The notes under the pieces were generated by a model. That model worked only from the letters and a program-made list of their open reading frames with translations. It made no database searches and was not told the DNA's origin. From NCBI RefSeq assembly GCF_014873755.1, contig NZ_JADBEG010000001.1, positions 932,501-996,500 of the forward strand: DNA of 64,000 nucleotides, in the 5' to 3' direction. Positions 15,451 to 24,670 of this stretch are shown here, piece by piece. Source of the stretch: Amycolatopsis lexingtonensis. Its GTDB lineage: Bacteria > Actinomycetota > Actinomycetes > Mycobacteriales > Pseudonocardiaceae. The position numbers and the translations under genes are program-made. Every line of letters begins with the position of its first letter. The first letter of the stretch is position 1.

Positions 15451-16854
15451 GTGACGAAACCAGAGACGTGGTTCTCCACCATGATCGAGGCACACCGGAC
15501 CGAAGGCAAAGCGGCGGGCGCCGTTTTCGAGGCGTGGGAACGGTTCGTGCGGGGCGAGGACCAGGTCCCGGGCGTCCGGCCCCTCGTGGCGATCTCCTGG
15601 CACCGCTGCCGGGAGCGGTACCGGGTCGACCCCCACCTGACGGAGGCCCCGGTGGCCGCCGCGGGGCGCGACCACGCTCCGGAACACGACGCCGTCTTCG
15701 CCGAACTGGGGTTCCGCGCCGCCTCGGTGGCGCACGAAATGGGGAGCCTGCACGGGGTCGTCAGCGTCACCGACGCCGCCGGGCGGATCCTGGGGGAGTG
15801 GGGCGACCCGGCCACGCTCGCCCGGGCCACCGACTTCAACCTGGTGCCGTGGTTCTGCTGGTCGGAGTGCGCGGCGGGGACGAACGGCATGGGGACCGCG
15901 CTCGAGGCGCACGGGCCGGTGCTGATCAGCGGGGCGGAGCACTGGTGCCAGGCGTTCCACAGCTGGGTCAGCGCGGGCATCGCGGTGCGGGACGTGGTGA
16001 CCGGCGAGCCGATCGGCGGCCTGAACCTCTCCTGCTGGCGCAGCCGGCTGCCGCCGTCCGCGGGCGGGTGGCTGGCGAACGCGGTCGCCAAGACCCAGCG
16101 CGCGCTGCGAAGGCGGGCCCGCGACAGCGGAGCCGAGCTGGTCGCCGCCTTCACCCAGGCGGGCGCGCGCTCCGGCGCCCCGCTCGCCGCCGTGGACACC
16201 GCAGGCAAGGCGGTGATCGCGGACGACAAGGCGAGCGTGCTGCTGGGCGTCCCGGCGTCCACCCCGGCGATCGACGCGAGCCTGCGGTGGAACCCCGGGC
16301 TGCCGGAACTGATCGGCGCCGCCCGGCACGCCACCGGGCAAGCGGCGCGCAACCCCGACTGGGTCGGCTCGACGCAGATCTACACCCACCTGGCCGACGA
16401 GCCGACGGCGATCAGCATCCGGCCCGTCTTCTCGTCCGCGCACCTGATCGGGCACCTGATCTCGTTCGGGGTGGCCGAAGGCGCGCCGCTGCCGCCGGCG
16501 GAAGGACCCCTGGCACCACCGCGCCGGCTGGTCGGGGTGCGGGACAACCGGATGGTGCTGCTGCGGCTGCCGGACGTCTCGCTCGCGGAGTCGGAGGGCA
16601 ACGACGTGTGGCTGTCCACCGCGCAGGGCCGCCTGCGCGCCGCGTCGCCCAGCCTGGACAAGCTCGACGCCGAGCTGGCCGGGGCCGGCTTCCTGCGCGT
16701 GCACCGCCGGTACGTGGTCAACCTCAGCCGCGTCCGGGAGGTCGAGCGCGGGGTCAAGGGCGAGCTGCTGCTCGTCATGGATGGCGGCCCGGACGAGCTG
16801 GTGCCGGTCTCGCGGCGCAACGCCCCGGCGGTGCGCCGCGCGCTGAACATCTGA
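15451..16854 (+). CDS. AcoR-like sensor with GAF and LytTR DNA-binding output
   Basis: About 467 residues from the GTG at 15451 (an ATG at 15481 is also possible; neither has a strong ribosome-binding site). The N-terminus holds an AcoR-type segment, [20 protein letters not shown], then a GAF-like domain around residues 80-200 ([33 protein letters not shown] with GTNGMGTAL). In AcoR-type activators this is followed by an AAA+ sigma-54 domain; here it is replaced by a C-terminal LytTR domain at about 360-467 ([20 protein letters not shown] and [16 protein letters not shown]). It lies 16 bp upstream of katG at the head of the PQQ cluster, so it is the probable activator of that cluster, responding to an alcohol or acetoin-like metabolite (inference). 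Confidence 0.8.
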
Positions 16855-16870
16855 GCCGCGGAGGGGTTTC

Positions 16871-18982
16871 GTGCGTGGCAGCAACCGCGAACGGTGGCCG
16901 GACCGGCTCGACTTGAGCGTGCTCCGGCGCGCACCGGCCGACCCCCTGGGCCCGGGCTTCGACTACGCCGCGGAGTTCGGGACCCTCGACTTCGACGCGC
17001 TGGCGCGGGACGTCGACGACGTCCTGACAACCTCGCAGGACTGGTGGCCCGCCGACTTCGGGCACTACGGGCCGCTCGTGCTCCGGATGGTCTGGCACTG
17101 GGCCGGCACGTACCGGATCGGCGACGGCCGGGGCGGCGCGGCCGCGGGCCTGCAGCGCTTCGCCCCGCAGAACAGCTGGCCGGACAACCGCAACCTCGAC
17201 AAGGCGCGCCGGCTGCTCTGGCCGGTCAAGCGGAAGTACGGGCGCAAGATCTCGTGGGCCGACCTGGTGGTCTTCGCCGGCAACCGGGCGCTGGAGACGA
17301 TGGGGTTCACGACCTTCGGTTACGCGGGCGGTCGTGAAGAGGTCTGGGCGCCCGGCGACGTCGACTGGGGGCCCGAGCGGGAGTGGCTGGGCGACGAGCG
17401 GCACCGCGGGGTCCGCGCGCTGGCGCACCCGCTGGCCGCTGACCAGATGGGCCTCATCTACGTCAACCCGGAGGGGCCGAACACCGTCCCGGACCCGCTC
17501 ACCTCGGCCCGCGACATCCGCGAGACGTTCCGCCGCATGGGCATGAACGACGAGGAGACGGTCGCGCTGATCGCGGGCGGGCACACGTTCGGCAAGACCC
17601 ACGGCCCCGCCGACCCGGACACCCACCTCGGCCCCGATCCCGAAGGCGCCGCCGTCGAAGAACAGGGACTGGGCTGGCGCAGCGGCTACGGCACCGGTTC
17701 CGGCGCGGACACCATCTCCAGCGGGCTGTCGGGTACCTGGACGCCCACCCCGACGCGCTGGGACAACGCTTTCTTCCAGACCCTGTTCGGCTACGAGTGG
17801 GACCTGGCGCTGAGCCCGGCCGGCCTGTGGCAGTGGGTTCCCGCGAACGGCGGGGGCGCCGGCACGGTGCCCGACGCCCACGACCCCGCGAAAACGCACG
17901 CCCCCACGATCCTGACGACGGACCTCGCGCTGCGGCTGGACCCGGGTTACGAGCCGATCGCCCGGTCGTTCCTGGCGCACCCGGACCGGCTGGCAAGCGC
18001 TTTCGCGAAGGCCTGGTTCAAGCTGACGCACCTCGACCTCGGGCCACGGCGGCGCTACCTCGGGCCGCTCGTCCCGGCGGAACCGCTGCTGTGGCAGGAC
18101 CCGGTCCCGGCGGTGGACCACGAACTCGTTTCCGCGGCGGACGTCACTGTGCTCAAGAAAGCGGTGCTCGCGTCCGGGCTGTCGGTGGCGGACCTCGTCT
18201 CCACGGCATGGGCGTCGGCTTCGACGTTCCGCACCACCGACCTGCGGGGCGGTGCGAACGGCGCCCGCGTCCGCCTCGAACCGCAGCGCGGCTGGGAGGT
18301 GAACGAGCCCGACCGGCTCGCGCGGGTGCTGGAAACCCTGACGACGGTGCGGGAATCGGCGCGGAAGAAGAGCTCGCTCGCCGACCTGATCGTGCTCGGG
18401 GGCGCGGCCGCCGTCGAGCACGCGGCCGGGTATGCGGTGGAAGTCCCGTTCACCCCGGGGCGCACGGACGCGACGCAGGAGTGGACCGACCCGGAGTCTT
18501 TCGCCGTGCTCGAACCGGTCGCCGACGGATTCCGCAACTACGAAGGGAAACGCCTGCGTTCGACGCCGGAGCGGCAGCTGGTCGAGCGGGCGGACTTGCT
18601 GGCCCTGAGCCCGCCCGAGTTGACGGTGCTCGTGGGCGGCCTGCGCGTCCTGGGGGCCAACCACCGCGGCTCGCCGCTGGGTGTTTTCACGGCGCGGCCG
18701 GGGAAACTGACGAACGACTTCTTCGTGAACCTGCTCGATCCCGGGGTGCGCTGGCAGCCGGCCGGGGACGTCTTCGAGGGCCGTGACCGGGTCACCGGCG
18801 AGGTCTGGTGGACCGGCAGCCGGGTCGACCTCGTGTTCGGCTCGCACGCCGAACTCCGGGCGCTGGCCGAGGTCTACGCGAGCGCCGACGCGGAGGAGAA
18901 GTTCGTGCGCGACTTCGTGGCCGCGTGGGCCAAGGTCATGGACCTCGATCGCCAGTGGTGCCCGAACGGGGGTGAACGGTAG
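16871..18982 (+). CDS. katG: Catalase-peroxidase KatG
   Basis: A 703-residue bifunctional heme catalase-peroxidase from a GTG start, slightly shorter than the usual 730-750. The active site is complete: distal Arg72, Trp75 and His76 ([18 protein letters not shown]), Tyr197 ([11 protein letters not shown]) and Met225 (RRMGMNDEE), which with Trp75 would form the Met-Tyr-Trp adduct needed for catalase activity, and proximal His238 ([10 protein letters not shown]). The C-terminal inactive duplicate domain is also present. It sits between the LytTR regulator and the quinoprotein genes, so its expected role is removal of peroxide made by, or alongside, the PQQ pathway. No signal peptide: cytosolic. 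Confidence 0.97.
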
Positions 18983-19078
18983 CCGCGGGCGGGTGAACGG
19001 CGCGAGCCCTTGCTGCCCGCCGTGCCCGGCGTAGCTTGATTCCCGGCCACGGAGATCGGGTGAGGAGGACGAAGGCCG

Positions 19079-19540
19079 ATGACGAGCATCCAAGAGCGCG
19101 TCGACCTGCTCAACAAGATCGGGCTGGACGCGCAGAACAAGGCGGCGCTCGGCGCTGTGCTGGGCACCGGGAACATCGGGCAGGCCACCGAAGGGCCGGG
19201 CGGGCGCCTGCGGGCCACCATCCGCATCAACCCGGACGAGCTGACCTGGGATCCGTCCATTTTGGTCATGCCGCACGAAGGTGACCTGGAACTCGAACTC
19301 ATCAACGACGACCGGAACACGCACTGCGCCCTGCTGCCGAGCAACGGCGACCGGAAGTTCATCTGGCTGGTGAACCACTCCAAGGGCCGCGCGACGCTCA
19401 ACCTCGACGGGCCGGGCTACTACTGGTTCAGCTCGCCGACGGGCAACGACGAAGGCCGGGGGCTCACCGGCGCGATCGTCGTGCTGGGCGACGCGCCCCC
19501 GGAGGCCCGGCTGGACCGGCCCCAGCAGCCGCGGCCGTGA
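19079..19540 (+). CDS. Cupredoxin-like protein lacking most copper ligands
   Basis: A 153-residue protein without signal peptide; an in-frame TGA at 19061-19063 rules out a longer start. Residues 40-138 read like a cupredoxin beta-sandwich: ELELINDDRNTHCALLPSNG carries the His82 that would be the first copper ligand, and GPGYYWFSSPTGNDEGRGLTGAIVV aligns with the usual Y-x-F-x-C...G-H...G-M ligand loop. At the Cys, His and Met positions it has Ser119, Asn123 and Leu129, so a type-1 copper site cannot form. Cys83 and His100 could bind something else. Ten bases separate it from the quinoprotein gene, so the two are cotranscribed and the protein may be a chaperone, subunit or redox partner of that enzyme. 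Confidence 0.7.
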   Translation: MTSIQERVDLLNKIGLDAQNKAALGAVLGTGNIGQATEGPGGRLRATIRINPDELTWDPSILVMPHEGDLELELINDDRNTHCALLPSNGDRKFIWLVNHSKGRATLNLDGPGYYWFSSPTGNDEGRGLTGAIVVLGDAPPEARLDRPQQPRP

Positions 19541-19550
19541 GGAGGAGGAC

Positions 19551-21251
19551 ATGACTGTCGACTACGTGGACGCCGGCGAGGCCATCGACCAGGGCAAGCT
19601 GAGCGGCAAGGTCGCGGGCGGCGAGGTCGCGCCGCCGGTGGTGGCCCGGCTCGGGTACGAGCGCATCCTCAACGCCCGCGAGGAGCCCCACAACTGGCTC
19701 ACCTACTACGGTGCCTACGACGGGCAGCGGTACAGCCCGCTGGACCAGATCGACACCGAGACCGTCAAGCGGCTCGTCCCCGCGTGGATCTTCCAGGCCG
19801 GCACGACCGGGCTGATCGCGGGTGCGTCGACCTACTCCTTCGAAGCCGCCCCGATCGTCGTCGACGGGGTGATGTTCCTCTCCGGCTGGGACGGCTGGGT
19901 GTGGGCGCTCGACGCGAAGACGGGCGTGGAGATCTGGCGGTACAAGCACGCCGTGCCCTTCGACGTGTCGCTGTGCTGTGGGAACGTCAACCGCGGGGTG
20001 GCGGTGGCCGCGGGCAAGGTCTTCTTCGTCTCGGCGAACGCGCGGCTGATCGCGCTCGACGCCACCACCGGCAAGCGCGTCTGGGTCAAGACCTACGGTG
20101 ACGTGCGCGCCGGCGAGAGCGCCACGGTGGCGCCGCTGATCGTGAAGAACCTGGTCATCGCCGGGAGCTCCGGCGGCGAATTCGGCGTGCGCGGTCACCT
20201 CGACGCGTTCGACCTCGAGACCGGCGACCACCAGTGGCGCTGCTACATGGTGCCGAAGCCCGGCGAACCCGGCTCGGAGACCTGGCCCGCCGAGGGCGAG
20301 GCCTGGGCGCGGGGCGGCGCGAACTGCTGGCTCACCGGCACGTTCGACCCGGAGACGAACCTGCTCTACGTGGGCACCGGCAACCCGGCGCCCGACTTCG
20401 ACGGCGAAGTCCGGGAAGGCGACAACCTCCACACCGACAGCATCGTCGCCGTCGACGTCGACAGCGGCCGGATCCGCTGGCACCACCAGTGCACGCCGCA
20501 CGACCTGTGGGACTACGACAGCATCGCCGAATGCATCCTGTTCGAGCGGGACGGGCGCAAGCTGCTCGGTCACTTCGACAAGAACGGCTACTTCTTCGTC
20601 CTCGACCGCACGGACGGCTCGCTGGTGCAGGTCACGCCGTTCGTGGACCGGATCACCTGGGGCGCGATCACGCGCGACGGCAAGGTCACGGCCAAGGTGT
20701 ACCCGGAGAAGGAAGGCGTCCCGGTTCACTTCTACCCCGGCCCGGCCGGCGCCAAGGAGTGGACGCACGCGTCCTACAGCCCGAAGACGGGGCTCTTCTA
20801 CGTCCCGGTGCAGGACACCGGGGCCACGGCGACCCGGCGGCGCCGGGAGTTCCGGGAGGGCATCCCGTATTGGGGCGCGGGAGTCGCGGTGGACATCGAC
20901 GACATGGCCGGTTCGGTAAGTGCTTTCGACGCGACCGGCGAGGAGAAGTGGCGCTGGCGCAACGAGCTCCCGATGTGCGCGTCGACGCTCGCCACGGGCG
21001 GCGACCTGGTGTTCGCCGGCGAGCCGTCCGGCGAGTTCAACGCGCTGGACGCGCGCACCGGCGAGCTGCTGTGGCAGTTCCAGTGCGGCAGCGGCCACCA
21101 CAGCAGCCCGACGACGTACTCGGTCGACGGACGGCAGCACATCGCCGTGCCGGTCGGCTGGGGCGGCTGGGCCGAGGGGTTCCTCCCCGGCATGCTCGGC
21201 GCGGGCCACGGCAGCGCGCTGATCGTGTTCGCCCTGCCGGAAACGTCGTAG
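19551..21251 (+). CDS. PQQ-dependent alcohol dehydrogenase-type quinoprotein, lanthanide-type metal motif, no signal peptide
   Basis: A 566-residue beta-propeller dehydrogenase of the methanol/ethanol dehydrogenase family, with tryptophan-docking repeats (WVWALDAKTGVEIWRYKH and others). The PQQ site includes vicinal Cys142-Cys143 (LCCGNVNRG). The metal ligands are Glu210 (GGEFGVRG), Asn278 (GTGNPAP), catalytic Asp302 and Asp304 in VAVDVDSG. The Asp two residues after the catalytic Asp marks lanthanide enzymes (XoxF, PedH); calcium enzymes have Ala or Ser there. The ATG follows GAGGAGGA. The N-terminus (MTVDYVDAGEAIDQGK) has no signal peptide and there is no room upstream for one, although relatives are exported. 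No cytochrome c gene is adjacent. Alcohol substrate unknown. Confidence 0.92.
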   Translation: MTVDYVDAGEAIDQGKLSGKVAGGEVAPPVVARLGYERILNAREEPHNWLTYYGAYDGQRYSPLDQIDTETVKRLVPAWIFQAGTTGLIAGASTYSFEAAPIVVDGVMFLSGWDGWVWALDAKTGVEIWRYKHAVPFDVSLCCGNVNRGVAVAAGKVFFVSANARLIALDATTGKRVWVKTYGDVRAGESATVAPLIVKNLVIAGSSGGEFGVRGHLDAFDLETGDHQWRCYMVPKPGEPGSETWPAEGEAWARGGANCWLTGTFDPETNLLYVGTGNPAPDFDGEVREGDNLHTDSIVAVDVDSGRIRWHHQCTPHDLWDYDSIAECILFERDGRKLLGHFDKNGYFFVLDRTDGSLVQVTPFVDRITWGAITRDGKVTAKVYPEKEGVPVHFYPGPAGAKEWTHASYSPKTGLFYVPVQDTGATATRRRREFREGIPYWGAGVAVDIDDMAGSVSAFDATGEEKWRWRNELPMCASTLATGGDLVFAGEPSGEFNALDARTGELLWQFQCGSGHHSSPTTYSVDGRQHIAVPVGWGGWAEGFLPGMLGAGHGSALIVFALPETS

Positions 21252-21299
21252 GTCGGGCTTGCGGACCGGGTTTGCGGATCGGGCAGAGGAGGTGAATCC

Positions 21300-21395
21300 A
21301 TGGAGCCTCAAGTCGTGGCGTGGGAGACGCCCGAGTTCGACGAGATCGCCGTCGCGCCCGAGGTGACGATGTACGTCGCCCGGCTGGACGACTAG
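21300..21395 (+). CDS. pqqA: PqqA precursor peptide
   Basis: A 31-residue peptide, starting at the ATG at 21300 with AGGAGGTGAATCC upstream. It ends EVTMYVARLDD: Glu21 and Tyr25 are spaced by three residues, the exact pattern cross-linked by PqqE to make PQQ. The C-terminus is Arg-Leu-Asp-Asp rather than the usual His. It lies 48 bp after the quinoprotein and 174 bp before pqqC, in the correct strand and order. It is too short for normal ORF calling but the motif and context make it convincing. Confidence 0.92.
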   Translation: MEPQVVAWETPEFDEIAVAPEVTMYVARLDD

Positions 21396-21448
21396 GGCCG
21401 GTACCGAAGTGGTTCAGGGCCGTTCGGCGACCGTGGCCCCCCTCAAAG

Positions 21449-21501
21449 GTCTTGAATGACTCATTCAGGTCCTCGGAGGTCCTGAATGAGTCATTCAAGA
21501 C
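21449..21501. repeat. Perfect 21-bp stem-loop between pqqA and pqqC
   Basis: The arms 21449-21469 and 21481-21501 are perfect 21-bp inverted repeats (outer end GTCTTGAATG / CATTCAAGAC) around an 11-nt loop. Each arm itself contains the palindrome TGAATGA-N-TCATTCA (one orientation in each). It is AT-richer than its surroundings and has no T-tract. It could reduce read-through from pqqA to pqqCDE or protect a processed pqqA transcript. The self-complementary core also looks like a dispersed genomic repeat of the host. Confidence 0.9.
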
Positions 21502-21569
21502 GTCGGCGGACCACCCGCCGGCTGTCCACACCGACGCCGACGCCCCTGCCACTAGGGAGGTGGAGTGCC

Positions 21570-22256
21570 ATGACGATCACCGCGGAAACGACGTTCGTCG
21601 AGACGTTGCGCGCACACTCGCGTCGCTACCACGACCAGCACCCGTTCCACGTCCGGATGAACGCGGGCCTGCTGAGTCCCGCGCAGCTGCGCGGCTGGGT
21701 GGCCAACCGCTTCCACTACCAGGAGAACATCCCGCGCAAGGACGCGGCGATCCTCGCGAACTGCCCGGACGTCGAGGTCCGCCGCCGCTGGATCCGCCGG
21801 ATCACCGACCACGACGGCGCGCACGCGGGGGAGGGCGGGATCGAGGCGTGGCTGCGGCTCGGCGAGGCCGCCGGGCTGAGCCGTGAAGAGGTCCAAGACC
21901 ACCGGCACCTGGTGCCCGGGGTGCGGTTCGCGGTCGGCGCCTACGTGACCTTCGCGCGGACCCGCCCGTGGGTGGAGGCGGTCGCGTCGTCGCTCACCGA
22001 GCTGTTCGCGCCCGACCTGATGGCGCAGCGGCTGGCCGCGTTCGAGCGCTGGTACCCGTGGATCGACCCCGCGGGACTGGCGTACTTCCGCGCCCGGCTC
22101 GAGCAGGCGCCGCGCGACTGCGAGCACGCGCTCGAGGTCGTCACCGAGCACTGCCGGTCCGCGGAATCCCAGGCGCGCGCCGTCGACGCGCTGTCGTTCA
22201 AGTGCGACGTCCTGTGGAGCCTGATGGACGCCATCGACCGAGCGTACCCGGAGTGA
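21570..22256 (+). CDS. pqqC: PqqC, PQQ synthase
   Basis: A 228-residue cofactor-free oxidase of the TENA/PqqC family that performs the last ring closure and eight-electron oxidation giving PQQ. The ATG at 21570 follows GGGAGGTGGAG. Conserved PqqC segments are present: [41 protein letters not shown], the HDG of [13 protein letters not shown] and, at the C-terminus, [16 protein letters not shown] with its active-site Lys. Length matches the family (about 230-250). It is followed after 2 bp by pqqD, so the two are translationally coupled. Confidence 0.95.
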
Positions 22257-22258
22257 CC

Positions 22259-22537
22259 GTGCCCGAAGTGTCCACAACGGACCGGCCGCGGCTGGCGCGG
22301 CACGTCCGGCTGAGCTTCGACCGGGCCCGGCAGCGGCCCATCCTCCTGCTGCCCGAAACGGTCGTGGTGCTCAACGGCAGCGGCGCGGACATCCTCGGGC
22401 TGTGCGACGGGCAGCGGACCGTCGCCGACGTCGTCGCCGAGCTCGGGACGCGGTACGGGACCGTGCCCGGCGACGAGGTGCGGCAGTTCCTCGCGCGGCT
22501 CGTCGCCCGGCGCTGCGTGGAGCTCGCCGATGGATAG
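22259..22537 (+). CDS. pqqD: PqqD, PqqA-binding chaperone
   Basis: A 92-residue small protein from a GTG 2 bp after the pqqC stop. It matches PqqD: RLARHVRLSFDRARQRPILLLPETVVVLNGSGADILGLCDGQRTVADVVAELGTRYG, with the winged-helix-like fold that presents PqqA to PqqE (the RiPP recognition element prototype). Its last 8 bases overlap the start of pqqE in another frame, so the two proteins are made in step, consistent with their known complex. Confidence 0.95.
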   Translation: MPEVSTTDRPRLARHVRLSFDRARQRPILLLPETVVVLNGSGADILGLCDGQRTVADVVAELGTRYGTVPGDEVRQFLARLVARRCVELADG

Positions 22538-23597
22538 CCCCTTCGGCCTGCTGGCCGAGCTCACCCACCGCTGCCCGCTGGCCTGCGCGTACTGCTCGAA
22601 CCCCGTGCAGCTGACTGGCCGTTCCGGCGAGCTGACCACCGGCGAGTGGCGGCGGGTCCTGGCCGAGGCCCGCGACCTGGGAGTGCTGCAGTGCCACCTG
22701 TCCGGCGGCGAACCGCTGCTGCGGGGCGACCTCGTCGAAATCGTCGCGGCGGCCCGCGATCTGGGCCTGTACACCAACCTCGTGACCAGCGCGCTCGGGC
22801 TGTCGCGGCGCCGGGCGGACCAGCTGCGGGCGGCCGGGCTGGACCACGTGCAGGTCAGCGTCCAGGCCGACGAACCCGCACTGGCCGACCGGATCGCCGG
22901 GATCCGCTCCTTCGACCGCAAGCTCGAAGCCATGCGCGTGGTCAAGGAGCTGGGCTGGCCGCTGACGGTGAACGTGGTGCTGCACCGGCAGAACATCGAG
23001 CACGTCGCCGGGCTGCTCGCGCTCGCCGAGGAAGCCGGCGCCGACCGGGTGGAGCTGGCCAACACCCAGTACTACGGCTGGGCTTGGCGCAACCGCGACG
23101 CGCTGCTGCCGTCACGGGCCCAGCTCGACGCCGCCGAGGCCGTCGTCCGTGCGGCGCGCGAGCGGCTGCGCATGGAAGTGATCTACGTCGTGCCCGACTA
23201 CTACAGCCGTTACCCGAAGCCGTGCATGGGCGGCTGGGCGTCCCGGCAGCTCACCGTGACGCCGGACGGCGACGTCCTGCCGTGCCCGGCCGCGCAGGCC
23301 CTGTCGCTGCCGCGCGCGAACGTGCGGGACGGCTCCCTGGCCCGGATCTGGGCGGAAGCACCGGTGATGACGGCGTTCCGGGGAACGGACTGGCTACCGG
23401 ACCCCTGCCGCGGCTGCGGCCGGCGCGAGGTCGACTTCGGGGGGTGCCGCTGCCAGGCGTTCCAGCTCACCGGCGACGCCGCGCGCACCGACCCCGTCTG
23501 CCACCTCTCGCCCGACCACCACCTCGTCGAGCACGCGATCGAGACGGCGAACGCTAGTCCGTCCCGATGGGAGCCCCGCCGAAGAGCGCGAAGCTGA
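22530..23597 (+). CDS. pqqE: PqqE, radical SAM PqqA peptide cyclase
   Basis: A 355-residue radical SAM enzyme that cross-links Glu and Tyr of PqqA. The ATG at 22530 lies within the last codons of pqqD. The SAM cluster motif CxxxCxxC is CPLACAYC near residue 15, followed by LSGGEPLLR. The SPASM-type auxiliary cluster region contains the Cys residues CMGGW, VLPCPAA, CRGCGRREVDFGGCRC and DPVCHLS. Length is close to the usual 370-380. The last 44 bases overlap the convergent exchanger gene. It closes the pqqA-C-D-E set; pqqB and a peptidase must be supplied elsewhere. Confidence 0.95.
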   Translation: MDSPFGLLAELTHRCPLACAYCSNPVQLTGRSGELTTGEWRRVLAEARDLGVLQCHLSGGEPLLRGDLVEIVAAARDLGLYTNLVTSALGLSRRRADQLRAAGLDHVQVSVQADEPALADRIAGIRSFDRKLEAMRVVKELGWPLTVNVVLHRQNIEHVAGLLALAEEAGADRVELANTQYYGWAWRNRDALLPSRAQLDAAEAVVRAARERLRMEVIYVVPDYYSRYPKPCMGGWASRQLTVTPDGDVLPCPAAQALSLPRANVRDGSLARIWAEAPVMTAFRGTDWLPDPCRGCGRREVDFGGCRCQAFQLTGDAARTDPVCHLSPDHHLVEHAIETANASPSRWEPRRRARS

Positions 23598-24588
23598 GGG
23601 CCCAGTAGGCGAGGTAGAGCGCGAGCAGCAGGAAACCGTGCCAGCGCTTCAACTGCCGGGTGGCGAGGAAGCCCGCCGCGAGCGTGGTCATCACGACGAG
23701 CACCGGGAGGTGCCAGGTGAGGACGTAGTCGTCGACCAGGATGCTGCCGCCCGCGAGCAGGATGATGCCGAGTTTCGCGGTGACCCCGAAGACGACGCTG
23801 CCGATGACGTTCCCGACCCCGAGTTCGGGCGCGCCCTTGCGGGTGGGTTCGACGGTCAGGAACACGTCTTCGAGGGTGAGCACGAGGGTGGCGATGGTGG
23901 CGCCGAACAGGCCGCCCTGGAGCCGGTAGTCCGCCAGGATCCCTTTCGTGCCGTAGCTGGTGGCGGCCGCGCCGGCGACGACCCCGGCCAGCGCGACGAG
24001 GGCGAGCCCGGCCGCGGCCCAGCCGGGCACCGGGCGGCTCTTGTCGAACGGCATCGGTACGGCGAACGGCGGCTCGCCGGCCGCCGGCGGGGTGCCGGGC
24101 CGCGCGCCGACTTCCAGTTTCTCGAGGATTTCCGCGTTCCGGAAGATCGGAGTCGTGCGGTTCAGCTCCCGGGTGGCCACGTAACCGAGGAAAGCGGCGA
24201 AAAGCACCACGAGCACTACGCCGTAAAGCGGCGTGAGCGGTTCCGAAAGGACGAACGGAATCAGCGCCAGCGGCGCGGCGGCGAACAGTACGAGGTACGG
24301 GCGCGGAATGTCCACTTTGGTCGGCGAAACGATCGCGGCGAGCGCGAGCACGATGCCGATCATCGAGATCGCCGTGCCGAAAACCGTGCCCAGCGCGACA
24401 TCGCCGAGATCCTCGGCGTTCAGCACGACGCCGAGCGCGACGTCGTCGAATTCGATTCCGGTGAAGACGATCGCGAGCAGGAAAACGGAGACGCGCAACC
24501 CGGCCGCCGCGCCGACCAGGTAGACGATCAGCTTTTCCGCGCTGTAGATCAGCAAGGCCGCGCCGACGGCGAACAACACTATCGACAT
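23554..24588 (-). CDS. Sodium/calcium exchanger-family membrane protein
   Basis: A 344-residue polytopic membrane protein from the ATG at 24588 (GAAAGGAAG upstream). It has two alpha-repeat-like halves: FLLAIVFTGIEFDDVALGVVLNAEDLGDVALGTVFGT in the first, and ATLVLTLEDVFLTVEPTRKGAPELGVGNVIGSVVFG in the second, separated by a Pro-rich loop around residues 160-200. These carry acidic residues where CaCA exchangers have GxSAPE, and GxVFGT / GNVIGS match the second half of the motif. About ten TM helices. Cation specificity cannot be assigned, because the acidic motif is unusual (IEFDD, LEDVF). Convergent with pqqE, overlapping by 44 bp. Confidence 0.8.
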   Translation of the reverse strand: MSIVLFAVGAALLIYSAEKLIVYLVGAAAGLRVSVFLLAIVFTGIEFDDVALGVVLNAEDLGDVALGTVFGTAISMIGIVLALAAIVSPTKVDIPRPYLVLFAAAPLALIPFVLSEPLTPLYGVVLVVLFAAFLGYVATRELNRTTPIFRNAEILEKLEVGARPGTPPAAGEPPFAVPMPFDKSRPVPGWAAAGLALVALAGVVAGAAATSYGTKGILADYRLQGGLFGATIATLVLTLEDVFLTVEPTRKGAPELGVGNVIGSVVFGVTAKLGIILLAGGSILVDDYVLTWHLPVLVVMTTLAAGFLATRQLKRWHGFLLLALYLAYWALSFALFGGAPIGTD

Positions 24589-24670
24589 GACACCGGCTTC
24601 CTTTCGGGGAAGGCCCGGTATCCGATGATCGCAGGTCGCCGCCGATCCGGCTACGGTCTTTCCCGGCGGG

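Follow-up and report, generated by a model that had tools for sequence, protein, structure and literature searches.

The question raised by a PQQ gene block of Amycolatopsis lexingtonensis is what enzyme it encodes, in which compartment that enzyme works and with which metal. The block lies in a 64,000 nt stretch (the window; positions 932,501 to 996,500 of NZ_JADBEG010000001.1, the single contig of this 10.7 Mb genome) and joins a quinoprotein alcohol dehydrogenase (ADH) to a regulator, the catalase-peroxidase KatG, a cupredoxin-like protein of family TIGR04339 and genes for synthesis of the cofactor pyrroloquinoline quinone (PQQ). Comparison with related loci makes it moderately probable that actinobacteria conserve here an operon whose ADH is cytosolic and of the lanthanide type.

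The PQQ block and its dehydrogenase

An earlier, sequence-only reading of this DNA had proposed eight same-strand genes with short gaps or overlaps, forming a self-contained PQQ system that includes a regulator and a peroxide scavenger. All eight are present on the + strand between 15481 and 23597. The intergenic distances from the regulator to pqqC are 16, 96, 10, 48 and 174 nt, after which pqqC, pqqD and pqqE overlap successively by 4 and 8 nt. Related loci (L numbers) were collected in one GTDB genome scan with the TIGR04339 protein, from which the best 80 of 93 relatives were kept; 62 of these have full flanks, i.e., at least 5 kb upstream and at least 8 kb downstream. The same gene order was found again across genera, and this recurrence rules out a chance arrangement. 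The block is real, coherent and widespread in actinomycetes, and the notion of a single PQQ system with its own regulator is borne out. Its protein families are already named; what the present comparison adds is the conservation of the lanthanide signature and the adjoining cation transporter.

The ADH is the sole PF01011 quinoprotein of the genome, and among solved structures its closest relative is PedH (6zcv, 379 bits). A second Asp two residues past the catalytic Asp is a mark of lanthanide enzymes. The site of the ADH reads WDYD and aligns with WDFD in PedH, whereas 1flg has WDFS, 1kv9 WDFT and 1kb0 WDYT. Residues E210, N278, D321 and the extra D323 (E-N-D-x-D) were retained in 76 of 76 aligned rows, comprising the window and 75 of 77 loci (L042, at a contig end, and L064, with a broken frame, were left out). 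They were also retained in 7/7 distant-family loci, counted with a wider motif, as a narrower one missed the Glu in three of them. For XoxF, an Asp coordinating rare-earth elements (REE) is stated in the available part of PMC5606694.

The ADH gene follows the TIGR04339 gene directly, 10–167 nt on, in all 77 loci whose contig continues. Co-occurrence was examined in 150 genomes of the family and 296 of the phylum, the family lists of partner and ADH being compared by reading. In the family sample, the 40 genomes with a TIGR04339 protein over cut-off are the same 40 that carry an ADH ≥70% identical; one more has a weak TIGR04339 match (G421, 27.9 bits), and in another 36 the ADH found nothing beyond weaker matches, the highest identity being 43% (G433). 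Seven genomes of this draw belong to the same genus, and the pair was found only in the window's own genome. In the phylum sample, TIGR04339 exceeded its cut-off in nine genomes and eight of those had a full-length ADH; the TIGR04339 gene of G290 sits where its contig stops, whereas ADH fragments lacking the partner were seen in G167 and G259. An intact ADH was not seen without its TIGR04339 partner, while the partner is able to occur alone.

The sequence-only reading had also pointed to the lack of an exported dehydrogenase and of a cytochrome c, and proposed a cytosolic system. Signal peptides were sought in 77 ADHs (within the first 60 residues) and 80 partner proteins, with no positive control, and the maximal 15-residue mean hydropathies were 1.19 and 0.98, respectively. 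The only two Tat-like matches were to Kineosporia TIGR04339 proteins, which have helical N-termini with no hydrophobic stretch after them. In the absence of a strongly hydrophobic N-terminal segment, a cytosolic enzyme is the simplest reading, so that sequence comparison favours this part of the earlier proposal. No cytochrome c gene was recognised among the families recurring in at least six loci, of which the first 60 residues were read; a genome-wide search was not made.

Table 1. Features of the PQQ block and its downstream neighbour (window coordinates).
Feature	Position	Strand	Evidence
LytTR-type transcription regulator	15481-16854	+	PF04397, 57 bits (cut-off 22.6); N-terminal part weakly DhaR-sensor-like
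KatG catalase-peroxidase	16871-18982	+	TIGR00198, 1039 bits (cut-off 770)
Cupredoxin-like protein, MSMEG_3727 family	19079-19540	+	TIGR04339, 280.9 bits (cut-off 75); PF23509, 268.8 bits (cut-off 27)
PQQ-dependent alcohol dehydrogenase (ADH)	19551-21251	+	TIGR03075, 615.8 bits (cut-off 480.05)
pqqA precursor peptide, E-x-x-x-Y core present	21300-21395	+	TIGR02107, 31.3 bits (cut-off 20)
Dispersed palindromic repeat, pqqA-pqqC gap	21449-21501	.	Genome-wide counts of half-site CTGAATGAGTCATTCA
pqqC	21570-22256	+	Profile match
pqqD	22253-22537	+	Profile match
pqqE radical SAM enzyme	22530-23597	+	Profile match
Na/Ca-exchanger-family (CaCA) cation transporter, divergent member	23554-24591	-	PF01699, 88.5 bits (cut-off 24.9)

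KatG and the regulator

The first gene had been described as a GAF-LytTR sensor. Its LytTR domain stands, but Pfam reports no GAF domain, and its N-terminal half shows only a likeness to the DhaR N-terminal region far below cut-off (38.8 bits, cut-off 551). Among the full-flank loci, KatG was found in 51, the regulator in 55, both in 48 and neither in four; the regulator count includes divergent copies, 39–49% identical, on the other strand. The order regulator, KatG, partner was seen in 49 of 80 loci, some contigs ending too soon to tell. In five others with no KatG ahead of the block (L051, L053, L054, L061 and L069), KatG lies downstream of it instead. A search for a shared operator motif gave mostly ribosome-binding-site-like words upstream of the TIGR04339 gene and, upstream of the regulator, words common to at most 24 of 57 loci.

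Both katG and the cupredoxin-like gene are thus kept in homologous clusters, the former in 51/62 full-flank loci and the latter together with the ADH in 40/40 family genomes. Clusters lacking this conservation had been named as grounds for refuting the sequence-only reading, which therefore withstands that genomic check. No KatG was seen near the block in Geodermatophilus or Micromonospora loci, or in seven distant Actinomycetota-family loci, some of these flanks being short, and KatG is therefore accessory, outside the core. Its inclusion in the PQQ run holds for this strain and most full-flank relatives, and does not extend to the core.

The genome has two KatGs, the second being 63% identical to that of the cluster. 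A KatG match was present in 62 loci, and after removal of two partial sequences (L017, L047) and one partly out of frame (L052), the alignment held 60 rows including the window. Seven catalytic positions (distal Arg, Trp and His, Tyr, Met, proximal His and a further Arg) were intact in 60/60 rows, and a Ser in 58/60. The idea that cluster KatGs are peroxidase-only was raised by a variable Met at 225, which resembled loss of the cross-linked Met, and was dropped, because the cross-linked residue, taken to be residue 223 of the window KatG, is kept in 60/60. A Trp directly follows the distal His in the window KatG (17096-17098, residue 77 or so), where the listed relatives have Cys, Ser, Ala or Gly.

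A quick unrooted tree was made from the 60 cluster KatGs and 31 others (the second KatG of this genome plus, from 60 family genomes, the 30 loci with the best scores, so that lower-scoring KatGs are missing). The cluster label needs two changes on this tree, compared with 26.1 in shuffles. The P. autotrophica-like KatGs (L062, L063, L065 and L067) group with the other KatGs, and their gene order differs, with KatG ahead of the regulator. Cluster KatGs thus appear to be mostly one dedicated lineage, the P. autotrophica group probably representing a separate association. That KatG became associated with the block on two occasions speaks for a functional link between them.

Such a link could reflect an alcohol-oxidase-like cycle, in which O2 re-oxidises cytosolic reduced PQQ (PQQH2) to give H2O2, and KatG disposes of the peroxide or uses it for re-oxidation. 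This spells out the suggestion of the sequence-only reading that the quinoprotein works with oxygen or peroxide. The frequency of KatG in the full-flank loci, its largely dedicated lineage with the separate P. autotrophica association, and its position after the block where none lies ahead would all fit this cycle, which is compatible with a cytosolic, lanthanide-type ADH. Set against it are the Geodermatophilus, Micromonospora and distant-family blocks with no KatG seen nearby, and the established fact that characterised quinoproteins of this family donate electrons to cytochromes, making the cycle rather doubtful.

The adjacent transporter and the partner protein

The first gene past pqqE is convergent, overlaps the pqqE end and encodes the divergent CaCA protein, which scores under the TIGR00367 cut-off (64.6 vs 179.65 bits); one representative MntP is also under its equivalog cut-off. 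The adjacency of a cation transporter to the block is an addition of the present analysis. One starts −104 to 254 nt from the operon end, on either strand, in 52 of the 72 loci with room for it, and is MntP-like (PF02659) in 37 loci and CaCA (PF01699) in 15, with L072 counted as MntP despite a distant CaCA match. In the distant family, MntP follows pqqE on the same strand in 5/6 loci with room, or in 4/5 new ones once L130, which is the same stretch as L072, is set aside. Chance adjacency was considered and rejected: 56 CaCA or MntP matches were counted in the 80 loci, and in 52 loci the operon end is occupied by one. The matches elsewhere are a second CaCA in L072 (31% identical, 740 nt on), MntP genes on the upstream side in L069 (70%) and in L076 (54%), and a CaCA in L082 (31% identical). 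The transporter is kept in L005, L010 and L061 despite their lack of pqqC-E, indicating that it travels with the dehydrogenase, not with PQQ synthesis.

All 16 aligned cluster CaCA proteins have ion-site motifs with extra acidic residues, E47-F-D49-D50 and E241-D242; the genome's other CaCA protein has, by eye, single acids at those motifs. Nothing else hints as strongly that metal handling may be part of the system as the substitution of one transporter family for the other in this position. Pseudonocardia kunmingensis (L051) carries the block with a CaCA gene. In the available part of PMC12828617, this species is cited as crystallising rare earths, a coincidence that deserves attention.

If the DxD signature were not diagnostic, the enzyme might be an ordinary Ca2+ or mixed-metal PQQ ADH, with the CaCA protein supplying or balancing Ca2+, the ion for which its family is best known; the lanthanide assignment does hang on one additional Asp. 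That Asp, however, is invariant in the 76 rows and the seven distant loci and missing from 1flg, 1kv9 and 1kb0, the nearest solved relative is PedH, and MntP-type genes occupy the CaCA position in 37 loci. A calcium enzyme is accordingly considered unlikely.

The cupredoxin-like protein had been called unusual. Its nearest named relatives are from Amycolatopsis sp. NPDC004378 (97%) and A. iheyensis (92%). The predicted fold is a cupredoxin: the VIA-align matches listed are to cupredoxin-type proteins only, and include CuA domains and auracyanin, while its sequence gave no match in the PDB up to E 1. That part of the description is sound; the protein is not an unnamed one, as family TIGR04339/PF23509 is already called PQQ-associated. 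To our knowledge, this family is known only through association, and although some sources label the protein a copper oxidase, we know of no test of that name.

Type-1 blue copper sites use two His, one Cys and usually one Met as ligands, with Cys, His and Met in the last loop. In the TIGR04339 alignment (80 rows, the window and 79 loci; L048, at a contig end, was left out), no conserved Cys, His or Met was found in the corresponding loop (residues 119–131), which instead carries GNDEGRGL in 80/80 rows, the R being Q or K in two of the seven distant loci. H82 (80/80) and C83 (79/80) are retained. With a cupredoxin fold that lacks the blue-copper ligand set, the protein is more probably a subunit or a loading factor than a carrier of copper. 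The fold, its CuA and auracyanin matches, and the retained H82 and C83 are what would be expected of a copper protein carrying electrons from the ADH to the respiratory chain; with the Cys-His-Met loop replaced and no signal peptide seen on these proteins, that role is improbable.

The ADH retains a vicinal cysteine pair in 76/76 rows, and in periplasmic enzymes this pair forms a disulfide. Export of the ADH by an unrecognised route, to work outside the membrane as the Gram-negative enzymes do, would explain the conserved pair and match the periplasmic siting of known rare-earth dehydrogenases (review PMC11845868, in the part available), but a Sec-like segment occurs in 0 of 157 proteins and the two Tat-like matches are both to Kineosporia partner proteins, making this the least probable of the alternatives.

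PQQ supply, known systems and the proposed pathway

The pqqABCDE set is not complete at the block, from which pqqB is absent, as had been noted. It is nevertheless present in the genome, at a second locus (8.93 Mb) with pqqB (293 bits, cut-off 245), pqqE, pqqD, a pqqC-like region of 219 residues at 57% identity and another that weakly resembles pqqA. Relatives carry pqqB between pqqA and pqqC in 53 of the 63 loci with pqqC, and ten lack it. Given its presence in most relatives and at 8.93 Mb, pqqB has presumably been lost from the block and is supplied in trans; the same counts led to rejection of the missing gene as a mark of a new PQQ route. Locus L036 has a decayed-looking pqqB-like stretch between pqqA and pqqC (31% identity, 717-nt gap), which fits repeated loss of pqqB.

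The perfect palindrome between pqqA and pqqC is built from a 16 nt half-site (CTGAATGAGTCATTCA) with 116 forward and 121 reverse copies in the genome (237 in total; control, 0), and many of the places listed are facing pairs. It resembles a repetitive extragenic palindromic (REP) or miniature inverted-repeat transposable element (MITE). Directly after pqqA, a G+C-rich inverted repeat was seen by eye in L004, L013, L021, L029, L040 and L078, and possibly limits downstream pqq expression.

PedH, the lanthanide-dependent ethanol dehydrogenase of Pseudomonas putida (6zcv/6zcw), shares the E-N-D-x-D site and the cysteine pair with the block ADH. PedH is, however, periplasmic with a cytochrome c acceptor, whereas the block ADH has no visible signal peptide, its TIGR04339 partner is obligate, and none of its recurrent neighbours was recognised as a cytochrome. 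The XoxF methanol dehydrogenases (6dam, 4mae) belong to the same superfamily and score lower against the ADH (303 and 296 bits), and no XoxG/XoxJ-like partner was recognised among those neighbours. Nocardia sp. 239 is reported to have once been claimed to possess a PQQ-containing, NAD-dependent methanol dehydrogenase complex.

The closest described counterpart is the MSMEG_3721-3727 cassette of Mycolicibacterium smegmatis, whose TIGR03075 enzyme, MSMEG_3726, is the lone PQQ-ADH of that species and sits with PQQ synthesis genes (Haft 2011, PMC3023750); TIGR04339 is named after MSMEG_3727. Compared by description, in the parts of PMC3023750 and PMC6529628 available, the cassette is presented as a bioinformatic association, and neither KatG nor a transporter is mentioned for it, nor a lanthanide signature or a location in the cytosol. 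PQQ dehydrogenases of actinobacteria, some with the REE Asp, are already in print: the accessible text of PMC5606694 covers xoxF5-like amplicons from isolates, PQQ from a methanol-grown actinomycete and Pseudonocardia PQQ-methanol dehydrogenase genes, and that of PMC4269115 the annotation of such Pseudonocardia genes in Atacama soil. These rest, as far as those texts go, on annotation or amplicons. In the portions of the open-licence PMC literature covered, no account was found that links the block with KatG or a transporter, or that gives it a lanthanide signature or places it in the cytosol.

Several observations weigh against a cytosolic, lanthanide-type ADH. A cytosolic quinoprotein with no identified electron acceptor leaves a real gap, and the vicinal cysteine pair would be surprising in the cytosol, where conditions are reducing. 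Export is the annotated function of MntP and of many CaCA proteins, and 20 of the 72 loci with room have neither at the operon end (two of them, L069 and L076, with MntP upstream). An extra TIGR04339 gene stands with no ADH or pqq genes alongside in three genomes of one genus (G337, G370 and G413; loci L150, L151 and L152). No pqqCDE lies in ten loci that have an ADH and 8 kb or more of downstream sequence (L005, L010, L047, L055-L058, L060, L061 and L066), which suggests that their PQQ is made elsewhere or imported. The support is drawn from sequences. In M. smegmatis, growth on ethanol needs mycofactocin, and an overlapping function of the PQQ genes (MSMEG_3721-3727) was excluded under the conditions used, according to the available part of PMC6529628.

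If the ADH is nonetheless cytosolic and lanthanide-type, the regulator would turn the operon on, probably in response to a small molecule, such as an alcohol or an aldehyde, perceived by its N-terminal half. The products of pqqA, pqqC, pqqD and pqqE, with PqqB from the second locus, would build PQQ in the cytosol, and the CaCA or MntP neighbour might adjust the metal supply, by importing lanthanide ions (Ln3+) or exporting competing Ca2+ or Mn2+. The TIGR04339 protein would bind the ADH as a small subunit or as a metal- or cofactor-loading factor, and the holoenzyme would oxidise alcohol to aldehyde and pass the electrons to an acceptor. In one branch, which includes this strain, KatG may clear the H2O2 arising from leakage of PQQH2 electrons to O2.

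A bolder proposal, put forward tentatively as a possibility, is that this represents the first cytoplasmic lanthanide system, a Gram-positive 'lanthanome' with a CaCA- or MntP-derived Ln3+ transporter, a non-blue cupredoxin (TIGR04339) repurposed as loader of metal or PQQ or as obligate subunit, and a quinoprotein coupled to O2/H2O2 with KatG in place of a periplasmic cytochrome.

A testable role is offered for the TIGR04339 family. Were the operon cytosolic and lanthanide-type, it would provide a concrete reason for the uptake of rare earths into the cytoplasm, point to possible transporters and a possible loading protein, and open up rare-earth biology in relatives of Streptomyces and Amycolatopsis.

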